64,000 nucleotides of DNA, taken from assembly GCA_004565275.1 (NCBI GenBank), contig SDOX01000122.1, positions 756,642 through 820,641 on the forward strand, written 5' to 3'. Source of the stretch: Nannochloropsis salina CCMP1776. Its lineage: Eukaryota > Sar > Eustigmatophyceae > Eustigmatales > Monodopsidaceae. The translations under genes and the position numbers were made by a program. Shown in pieces: positions 8,074-12,879 of the stretch; position 1 is the first letter of the stretch, and every line of letters begins with the position of its first letter. The notes below the pieces were generated by a model. That model saw nothing but the letters and a program-made list of their open reading frames with translations. It made no database searches and was not told the origin of the DNA.

Positions 8074-8203
8074 GGTGACTTGGCCGAGAGGTTAAGGCGT
8101 TGGTTTTAGGCGCCAATGGGAAACCGCGTGGGTTCAAGTGCGGTGTTCGAGACGGGATGTGACCCTCTCCGATGCACACTGCCCCGAAACCCCACAGTCA
8201 CCA
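8074..8203 (+). tRNA. tRNA-Leu(UAG) with an insertion in the T loop
   Basis: The acceptor 5' strand (8074-8080) pairs perfectly over 7 bp with 8196-8202, followed by discriminator A at 8203, the base required for leucine tRNAs. D stem GCC/GGC (8083-8085 with 8096-8098), anticodon stem 8100-8104 with 8112-8116 (one G-U), loop TTTAGGC with anticodon UAG at 8107-8109 and G37, an 11-nt variable arm (8117-8127), and T stem 8128-8132 with 8191-8195, perfect 5 bp. Between the two T-stem strands lie 58 nt rather than 7, so about 51 nt must be removed to give a 79-nt type II tRNA. The A box (TGGCCGAGAGG) fits consensus and the B box differs at one position. No anticodon-loop intron is present. A T-run follows at once. 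Confidence 0.82.
8138..8188 (+). other. Candidate non-canonical tRNA intron, 51 nt
   Basis: Removing 51 nt restores a normal T loop. The exact cut is ambiguous: 8137-8187, 8138-8188 and 8140-8190 give TTCAAAC or TTCAAGT loops, all acceptable. The block folds on itself: 8140-8146 pairs with 8176-8182 (one G-U), 8147-8152 with 8166-8172 (one bulged C), and 8154-8156 with 8163-8165. Outside this, TTC at 8133-8135 can pair with GAA at 8186-8188, leaving bulges on opposite strands, which resembles a relaxed bulge-helix-bulge substrate of tRNA splicing endonuclease. This is structure seen in the sequence; splicing itself is inferred. Confidence 0.65.
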
Positions 8204-8205
8204 TC

Positions 8206-8217
8206 TTTTTTCTTTTT
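8206..8217 (+). terminator. RNA polymerase III terminator
   Basis: Six T, one C and five more T begin two bases after the tRNA discriminator. This is a standard Pol III stop signal and supports the assignment of 8203 as the tRNA 3' end. Confidence 0.75.
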
Positions 8218-10289: not shown

Positions 10290-12879
10290 TCATGCGTCCG
10301 CTAGCTCCATGAGCTCTAGCCAGCGGTCCTCCTTGGCCGCGATCTCCGCCTCGATCTTCTCCAATCGCGACGCCCACTCTGCGAGCTGACTGAAGCCAGC
10401 ATTGTTCTTGTGACCCTCGTCCAGCTTGCTCTGGTACTCCGCTGCCTGCTTTTGCAGGGTGCCAATGGCTTGCTCCATGCCCCCCAACTCCTTCTTCTCC
10501 TTCCCACTCAGCCGTCTGGAGGCCGCCATTTTCGCATCGCTTTGTCCTTTCCGCGTCTCCCCCGAGTTGGAGTCTTGCCATGCTGAGCCTCCTTGCGCCT
10601 TGGCTTCTTTCTCCATTTCCAGCCAGTCGCTGAAGCTGCCCTGGAAGTCCCGCACGATGCCGTCCCCCTGGAAGGCAAAGAGGTGCCCCGCCAGTCGGTC
10701 CACAAAGCGGCGGTCGTGGCTGACGAAGACCAGCACCCCCTGGTACTCCTCGAGCAGGAACTCCTCCAGCACCGCCAGCGTGGACAGGTCCAAGTCGTTG
10801 GAGGGCTCGTCCAGGATCAGGAAATTCGGACGCTGGGCCAAGACCCACATGAGCTGCAGGCGCCGCCGCTCCCCGCCGCTCAACTTCCCAACCAAGTCCT
10901 GCCAACGCGAGGTGGGGAACTGGAACCGCGTAAGCAACTGCCTGGCCAGTGCCTCGCCCGACAATTTGGGTCCCTGGATACTGATGTTCCCCTGCTCGTC
11001 CGTGCGCACCGTGCTCCCTTCCTTCGCCAGAGCATCCTCGGCTGTCTGCTTCACGTACTCCATCAGCCGCACCCCGTCCGGGAAGTCCATCCCCGCCTGC
11101 GCATAATACCCGAAGCGGACCGTCTCCCCCTGCACGACCTCGCCGCTGTCCAGGGGGAGCTCGCCCAGCAGGATGGAGAGGAAGGTGGACTTGCCCGCCC
11201 CGTTGGGGCCCACGATGCCCACGCGGTCCCCCTTGGTGAACTCGTACGTGAAGCTCGTCAGGATCTGCTTGTCTGCCTTCTGGAAACGGAAGGAGGCGTC
11301 GTCGAAGGCCAGGACGAAGGAGCCCAGCCGGGACTTAGCGGCATCCAGTGAGAGGGATTTGACCTCCTCCTTCTTGGCAGTCTTCTTGACCAGCTCGTGG
11401 TAGGCCCCCTGCCTCGACTTGCTCTTGGCCTGACGCGCTCGGGGCTGCTTTCGCATCCAGGCCAGCTCCTTCTGGAGTTTTTTCAAGTCGTTGGCGCGGG
11501 CGGACGCTTGGGAGGAGAGGCGCACCTCCTTCGCCTCCAAGAAGGACTCGTAGTTGCCGGTGTGCCGGTAGAGCGCCGCGTCCTCCAGCTCCCACACCTC
11601 GGACTGACAGACCGTCTCCAGGAAGTATCGGTCGTGCGTGACCACGATCGCAGTGACCGCTCGGTTCGCCAAGTGTGCCTCCAGCCATTCGATCGCGTCG
11701 ATGTCGAGGTGGTTGCTGGGCTCGTCGAGGAGGATCACATCCGGCTTCCGAACCAAGGCCGTGGCCAGGCCCAGGCGTTTCCGCTGCCCCCCCGACAGCG
11801 TGTCCACGTCTTTGTCTTGCAGATCGACAACATTGAGCTGCGTGAAGATTTGGTTGGCGATCGTCTCCGCCTCCCAGCCCCCCGTCACGTCCATGCGCTG
11901 AGAGGCCTCTTGGAACTTGTCGTAAGCCTCCTCGGTGCCCGTCGCCAGGGCCTCGCTCGCCTTCTGATAGGCCCAGACAGCCGCCATTGCAGGGCTCCCC
12001 GACGGTGAGAACATAACGTCCTGGGTAATGGTGGAGACGGGACAAAGGTAAAGCGGCTTGACACCAGCACCTCCTCACGCAACTCGAAGAGTCTGGCAGA
12101 ATCACCATCTTACCCCCGTACGAAGTGTCAAGAGTCGCGACCGTCAGCCCTGTATTTCCAGACTACACACCTTGACTTTTAGGCCGGGGGTGAATGTCGG
12201 CTCCTGGTCGACGTAGACAACCGTCAGGCCCTTGAGGGTCTCAATCTCCCCAGACTCGGCCTTCTCCACTCCGCCTATGCACCGAAGCAGCGTGGATTTC
12301 CCGCACCCATTGACTCCGACCAAACCAACCTTCTGGCCTTTCGCCAAAGAAAGAGACAAGTCTTTAAACTGGTACCTGGTGTGCGTTTTATGGGAGTATG
12401 AGGGTAGGCGTTGAGGCGCATTCGAAGGCCCTGCGTCGTAAGATACTTCTGTACAACATACTGAGGAGCGATCCACCGCCCAATCTTCAAAGAAAATTTG
12501 TACCAAAAAACTTTGGGCGTACAACAGTATGCAGACGTGACCGCACATGTTCCATGGGTGCCGCTTTTCGACATGGACTAATACATGCGGTCGTGTGAGT
12601 AGAGTTCGCTTGTAGTCAAGTACAAACATTCCCCTTCCCTTCCTTGAGAACAAACCTTTGTCCATCAAATGTGTTACTTAGGCCTCGTAGCCACAGCACT
12701 GTCTCAGTATTCGTCTCGTGGCCCGGGGACGCTGTTGTTGTTGACATTTGCAGAGCGACATGACGTACGCGGGGTGGCGGGATTCGACTAACGAGCGACG
12801 CACGGAAAGCCTGGGTCGTCCCCAGCGCATTCAAGACGGCCACCATCGTGATAAAAACGCGTGTAGTTAAGAACCACAT
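10290..12879 (-). CDS. Plastid ABC-F ATPase (Uup/EttA type)
   Basis: Three exons (12879-12656, 12375-12171, 12020-10290), 719 residues. ABC-F proteins have two ATPase domains and no membrane helices and act on ribosomes. Domain 1 has Walker A GVNGCGKST (about residue 95), signature LSGGQRKRL and Walker B VILLDEPSNHLD; domain 2 has GPNGAGKST (about residue 414), LSGGERRRL and FLILDEPSNDLD. A basic linker (about residues 320-365) and a C-terminal coiled coil (about 650-719) fit the Uup branch. The N-terminus is a signal peptide ending in TTQAF followed by Ser/Arg/Pro-rich sequence, so the protein should act on plastid ribosomes. Family call firm; location inferred; exact ribosomal role unknown. 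Confidence 0.88.

Follow-up and report, generated by a model that had tools for sequence, protein, structure and literature searches.

Positions 8074 to 8203 of the window from Nannochloropsis salina (the window being the whole stretch of DNA analysed, 64,000 nt in length) are a complete nuclear tRNA-Leu(UAG) only after 51 nt within the T loop are removed. We consider it probable, at roughly 85%, that this is a working gene and that the 51 nt are an ectopic T-loop intron, at or next to position 59/60, which the tRNA splicing endonuclease removes. RNA polymerase III would transcribe the whole unit and stop at the T-run, the endonuclease would cut the pre-tRNA in unpaired bases of the T loop, and tRNA ligase would join the exons to give a T loop of TTCAAAC or TTCAAGC. 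What we observed is the anatomy of the gene, a set of other interrupted genes, and searches that yielded no other nuclear tRNA-Leu(NAG) gene; transcription, cutting, joining and the cutting enzyme are inferred. The intron would be one of a series of ectopic introns that occupy D and T arms across the nuclear tRNA genes of this alga.

The interrupted tRNA-Leu(UAG) gene

The initial annotation had argued that all tRNA parts fit only if about 51 nt of the T loop are left out, and every part was indeed found where it had been placed (Table 1). The two strands of the T stem (GTGGG/CCCAC, 5/5 pairs) lie 58 nt apart instead of the usual 7, an excess of exactly 51 nt, and the insert sits away from position 37/38, in the T loop at 58/59 or 59/60. 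The precise cut site is ambiguous. The junction originally proposed, 8137/8189, does give a good T loop, but the alternative, 8138/8190, gives an equally good one. All stems outside the insert are undamaged, and when the locus was spliced in silico, ARAGORN drew a regular 79-nt tRNA-Leu(UAG) with a complete cloverleaf. The B box is broken by the insert (GGTTCAAGTGC), which we counted against a working gene, and no clear TATA-like box was seen by eye about 30 nt upstream. Elsewhere in the window, the minus strand carries a 574-aa open frame (10290-12014) whose translation looks by eye like an ATP-binding-cassette protein.

A scan for this anatomy asked for an acceptor stem of 7/7 pairs (G-U allowed), T8, A14, a T stem of 5/5 pairs, TTCRA and 5 to 129 nt between the T-stem strands. 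Applied to both strands of the 64-kb window, it returned a single match, the tRNA-Leu(UAG) gene. Chance matches were rare: none in 5 shuffled windows, and 12 in 150 windows in which bases were permuted inside 200-base blocks (about 0.08 per window). Moreover, the scan ignored the D arm, the anticodon arm and the terminator, and the locus also has all three. The expectation that standard scanners would tend to miss such a gene needs correcting, as ARAGORN did flag the unspliced locus, as tRNA-Leu(tag) at 8075-8165, with the wrong 3' half: the 3' end is misplaced, two acceptor positions do not pair and the T stem is weak. The Rfam tRNA model returned nothing above its cut-off of 29 bits in the window, its best score being 18.9.

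Table 1. Parts of the tRNA-Leu(UAG) gene (window coordinates) and positions of the other nuclear tRNA genes with inserts outside the anticodon loop
Feature	Position	Strand	Remarks
Leu(UAG) acceptor stem, 5' strand GGTGACT	8074-8080	+	7/7 pairs with 8196-8202
Leu(UAG) D arm GCCG-AGAGGTTA-AGGC	8083-8098	+	three pairs drawn by ARAGORN; class II
Leu(UAG) anticodon arm TTGGT-TTTAGGC-GCCAA	8100-8116	+	TAG at 8107-8109; 37/38 intron absent
Leu(UAG) variable region, 11 nt	8117-8127	+	
Leu(UAG) T stem, 5' strand GTGGG (8128-8132), and 5' part of T loop, TTCAA(G)	8128-8138	+	
Leu(UAG) T-loop insert, 51 nt, inferred intron	8139-8189 (8138-8188 equally possible)	+	removal gives an ordinary cloverleaf; TTCAAG/C if 8139-8189, TTCAA/AC if 8138-8188
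Leu(UAG) C60, final T-loop base, and T stem, 3' strand CCCAC (8191-8195)	8190-8195	+	
Leu(UAG) acceptor stem, 3' strand AGTCACC (8196-8202), and discriminator A73 (8203)	8196-8203	+	
Leu(UAG) Pol III-type terminator TTTTTTCTTTTT	8206-8217	+	T6 at 8206-8211
tRNA-Leu(UAA)	L034 1399-1536; C55:1183127-1183264	-	nuclear; T-loop insert, 57 nt
tRNA-Ser(UGA)	L061 60-238; C55:135659-135837	-	D loop 5 nt, 37/38 38 nt, T loop 54 nt
tRNA-Asn(GUU)	L062 108-241; C55:695887-696020	-	anticodon-loop intron 15 nt, T loop 46 nt
tRNA-Ser(GCU)	L033 1494-1653; C2:833683-833842	+	anticodon-loop intron 27 nt, 51 nt between 62/63 (T stem)
tRNA-Pro(UGG)	L069 121-241; C57:812760-812880	-	T-loop insert, 48 nt; one acceptor mismatch
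tRNA-Lys(CUU)	L036 1576-1697; C99	+	D-loop insert, about 48 nt (by eye); ARAGORN Lys(ctt)
tRNA-Lys(UUU)	L036 1932-2014; C99	-	D-loop insert, about 10 nt (by eye); ARAGORN Arg(tcg)

Other interrupted nuclear tRNA genes

The T-loop insert of tRNA-Leu(UAG) is not a one-off pseudogene feature, as the same kind of insert is present in at least five other nuclear tRNA genes. We located 24 nuclear tRNA genes, of which 14 are uninterrupted, 2 have an anticodon-loop intron only and 8 carry inserts elsewhere. The 24 comprise 18 from stretches scanned with ARAGORN plus Leu(UAG), Ser(GCU), Leu(UAA), Ser(UGA), Asn(GUU) and Pro(UGG), and the survey is incomplete and biased: with Rfam, 63 of 582 candidates were scored, and the remaining genes came through D-arm patterns. 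The two genes with an anticodon-loop intron only are a tRNA-Tyr and an odd gene on C36 (L042 1604-1710, plus strand; C36:157603-157709). In the C36 gene the anticodon varies with the cut chosen, and ARAGORN reads it as Pro GGG while the D arm resembles that of tRNA-Val. We note that the two interrupted tRNA-Lys genes adjoin each other on opposite strands of C99.

Five genes, Leu(UAG), Leu(UAA), Ser(UGA), Asn(GUU) and Pro(UGG), are interrupted at one shared place, in the T loop after TTCRA(N), which is the 59/60 site. The base just 5' of the T-stem 3' strand in these five is C, C, C, C and T, a pyrimidine in every case, as expected at position 60. The Ser(GCU) insert was tried as a T-loop insert and rejected, as the T stem of this gene is intact only if the cut is placed between 62 and 63. 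Acceptor stems are fully paired in four of the five T-loop genes (7/7; 6/7 in Pro(UGG)) and, by eye, in Ser(GCU), where one pair is G-U. The discriminators, A in both tRNA-Leu genes, G in Ser(UGA), Asn and Ser(GCU), and C in Pro, are the usual eukaryotic ones. Spliced in silico, all six T-arm genes gave the right amino acid and anticodon with ARAGORN; unspliced, four of the six were not found, and Leu(UAG) and Pro(UGG) received a wrong 3' end. The 5-nt excess in the D loop of Ser(UGA) might simply be tolerated. As several tRNA genes have their interruption in or close to one common position, the cell very probably cuts such pieces out. Moreover, no nuclear tRNA-Asn(GUU) free of an insert was found, the sole copy located being one that carries a T-loop insert, and no other tRNA can read Asn codons.

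Further disrupted genes were sought with other patterns. Of the 27 places matched by one pattern, 14 are not tRNAs (L063-L068, L113-L120) and 13 are, 7 of these nuclear and 6 organellar. A second gave 36 places, of which 4 are tRNAs and the other 32 were judged by their matched letters only. Eleven places from a third included one previously unlisted (L071), which is no tRNA, and 18 from a fourth included ten previously unlisted (L070, L072-L074, L121-L126), again no tRNA; the fourth is at chance level, as its reversed control gave 31. The motif TGCGG just after the T-loop start is common to Leu(UAG), Leu(UAA) and Asn(GUU). An insert-start pattern built on it matched 19 places genome-wide, three known genes and 16 in which the scan found no tRNA, against 22 for the reversed control, so that the motif carries no weight. 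Relaxing the scan to 6/7 acceptor pairs over the retrieved loci added organelle loci with inserts of long or odd form and two nuclear candidates (L019, 274 nt; L041, 277 nt), which were dropped as chance because no tRNA body was visible by eye. Finally, a pattern derived from the exons had no match in viral contigs, and in phages it matched 43 nt of a single record that carries no annotation.

Proposed excision of the insert and its alternatives

A search for a bulge-helix-bulge (BHB) motif at the exon-intron junctions of tRNA-Leu(UAG) found no convincing one. On that test the intron is not to be filed as a BHB intron. Among the five T-loop genes, a strict form of the motif occurred in none and a relaxed form in one (Ser(UGA)), which is within chance, as shuffled sequences give 5 to 15% per gene. 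In the predicted fold of the tRNA-Leu(UAG) T arm, a 3-bp UUC/GAA helix is flanked on both sides by unpaired bases among which the likely cuts would fall, a loose likeness to the motif. The folding energy of this T arm lies below that of most shuffles (as low in 5 of 200, and in 14 of 300 in a second run), and the same holds for Ser(UGA) (2 of 300). The energies of Leu(UAA), Asn and Pro are unremarkable, with 73, 107 and 48 of 300 shuffles as low.

The enzyme itself appears to be encoded. Matches to the endonuclease family PF01974 comprise one piece on C78 above the cut-off, and a second piece on C78 and one on C55 below it. From these matches and from their translations, read by eye, the C78 pieces are likely a SEN34-like gene and the C55 piece is likely SEN2-like; the C55 piece also gave weak PDB matches to splicing endonucleases (E 0.09-0.3). 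Catalytic SEN2 and SEN34 would thus both be present in the genome, on the strength of the PF01974 pieces and of names given by eye. Moreover, the same genome has ordinary-looking 37/38 introns in tRNA-Tyr, Asn and Ser, and therefore the endonuclease pathway should be active. These introns and the PF01974 pieces are what speaks against removal by some other nuclease, with an unspecified route of ligation. We hold that alternative to be unlikely, even as a clear BHB is absent from the T-loop sites and as ectopic introns of the Guillardia nucleomorph, many without a defined BHB, are removed by a mechanism given as unknown in excerpts of PMC4090602 and PMC3978253. We prefer cutting by the tRNA splicing endonuclease.

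Alternatively, the locus could be a pseudogene broken by a 51-nt insertion, with the true tRNA-Leu(UAG) elsewhere, missing from the assembly or not needed. The initial annotation had taken a normal copy elsewhere as the mark of that case, and none was found by BLAST or by four patterns, a search that was not exhaustive. A BLAST of the gene against the assembly (26.5 Mb, 103 contigs) returned the self-match only, with no second copy. Four patterns that combined a Leu-type D arm with the anticodon NAG revealed no further nuclear tRNA-Leu(NAG), and three of the four recovered the tRNA-Leu(UAG) gene. The first pattern hit 4 places, the gene and three other tRNAs. Another hit 2 places, the gene and C47:229110, the latter no tRNA. 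A third hit 20 places, and in all 19 beside the gene at most 3/5 anticodon-stem pairs directly follow the loop; a 5-pair stem lies somewhere within 60 nt in 8 of the 19, an upstream D arm was seen by eye in none, and the anatomy scan over the same 19 had no match. The fourth pattern, with a D loop one base longer, hit 11 places, ten of them not tRNAs by ARAGORN and the anatomy scan (L050-L059) and one a plastid tRNA; the gene is missing from this list because the pattern asks for one D-loop base more than it has. Nuclear tRNA-Leu(AAG) and tRNA-Leu(CAG) were likewise not found by pattern and may be disrupted, permuted or unassembled. Otherwise disrupted or permuted tRNA-Leu genes could escape the NAG patterns. 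The mitochondrion has its own intact tRNA-Leu(UAG), and this should not stand in for a cytosolic one.

A pseudogene is therefore disfavoured by the lack of any synonymous gene in these searches, by stems that are undamaged everywhere outside the insert, and by an insertion site common to several nuclear tRNA genes, the only tRNA-Asn(GUU) found among them. It draws some support from excerpts of PMC4090602, according to which a short D- or T-arm insertion in eukaryotes mostly affects a single tRNA gene among many synonymous ones and is regarded as marking a pseudogene, and from the coverage of the data: parts of the genome may be missing from the assembly, and 63/582 candidates were scored in the family search. 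On balance we regard a pseudogene as improbable. Processing of the RNA at 8165, to a tRNA with another T arm and no splicing, is more improbable still: it follows the 3' end called by ARAGORN and a T-arm-like stretch within the insert (TGTTCGAGAC), but its two acceptor non-pairs and weak T stem compare poorly with the 7/7 acceptor, 5/5 T stem, A73 and immediately following T-run found downstream.

Comparison with known ectopic introns

The cell very probably excises such tRNA inserts in a manner that has few known parallels except in red algae and archaea. In how it would work, the T-loop intron of tRNA-Leu(UAG) resembles the ectopic introns of Cyanidioschyzon merolae and of Guillardia. Perhaps the pattern is wider. 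We tentatively suggest, as a possibility of some substance, that many nuclear tRNAs of eustigmatophytes, the sole-copy tRNA-Asn(GUU) included, need long T- or D-arm introns without a BHB to be cut out, and that the endonuclease would therefore recognise its substrates in a way undescribed in other eukaryotes. This mode of recognition might have been gained independently of red algae or inherited from the red-algal endosymbiont. Nannochloropsis, a stramenopile, is cultured in laboratories and can be genetically transformed there. Nuclear ectopic introns in a stramenopile would offer a tractable organism in which to study how a eukaryotic endonuclease chooses sites that neither adjoin the anticodon nor carry a BHB. 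They also suggest that Nannochloropsis tRNA sets obtained with default scanner settings are incomplete; for N. oceanica, excerpts of the genome report describe tRNAs predicted with default tRNAscan-SE (PMC6610115).

Among the literature matches listed (titles and the starts of abstracts, with few subscription papers), none reported such introns in Nannochloropsis, eustigmatophytes or other stramenopiles, in agreement with the initial annotation, which knew of none in eustigmatophytes. Its statement that introns away from position 37 are known from archaea and Cyanidioschyzon also stands, but its eukaryotic list was too short, as nucleomorphs (Guillardia theta) have them too. In excerpts of PMC4090602 and PMC3978253, archaeal tRNA introns occur several per gene and at the same place as here, 59/60 being a listed archaeal site (PMC4090602). 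Archaeal endonucleases cleave them at BHB motifs of strict or relaxed form, whereas the N. salina sites have no convincing one.

In the nucleomorph of Guillardia theta (Kawach 2005), as here, introns lie in the D and T arms and a gene can have several, and excerpts of PMC4090602 and PMC3978253 describe inserts of 3-24 nt at non-canonical positions, many without a defined BHB, that are excised as judged by RT-PCR. In contrast to those 3-24 nt, the T-arm inserts of N. salina measure 46 to 57 nt. The nucleomorph is the remnant nucleus of an endosymbiont, whereas the N. salina genes belong to the host nucleus.

In Cyanidioschyzon merolae (Soma 2007, 2013), as in N. salina, the genes are nuclear genes of a small alga (excerpts of PMC3978253, PMC9602550 and PMC4090602). 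In these excerpts its introns lie in the D loop or stem, the anticodon loop and the T loop, sometimes with three in a single gene, and Ser(UGA) of N. salina is interrupted likewise. Its tRNA-Ile(UAU) has three introns, of which the T-loop intron is removed before the anticodon one (excerpt of PMC9602550), and 59/60 is the junction of its type IV permuted genes (excerpt of PMC3978253). The introns and junctions of C. merolae form BHB motifs of various types (excerpts of PMC3978253 and PMC9602550), in contrast to N. salina, where none is convincing. Finally, C. merolae is, in the same excerpts, a red alga with known permuted genes, whereas N. salina is a stramenopile, of another lineage.
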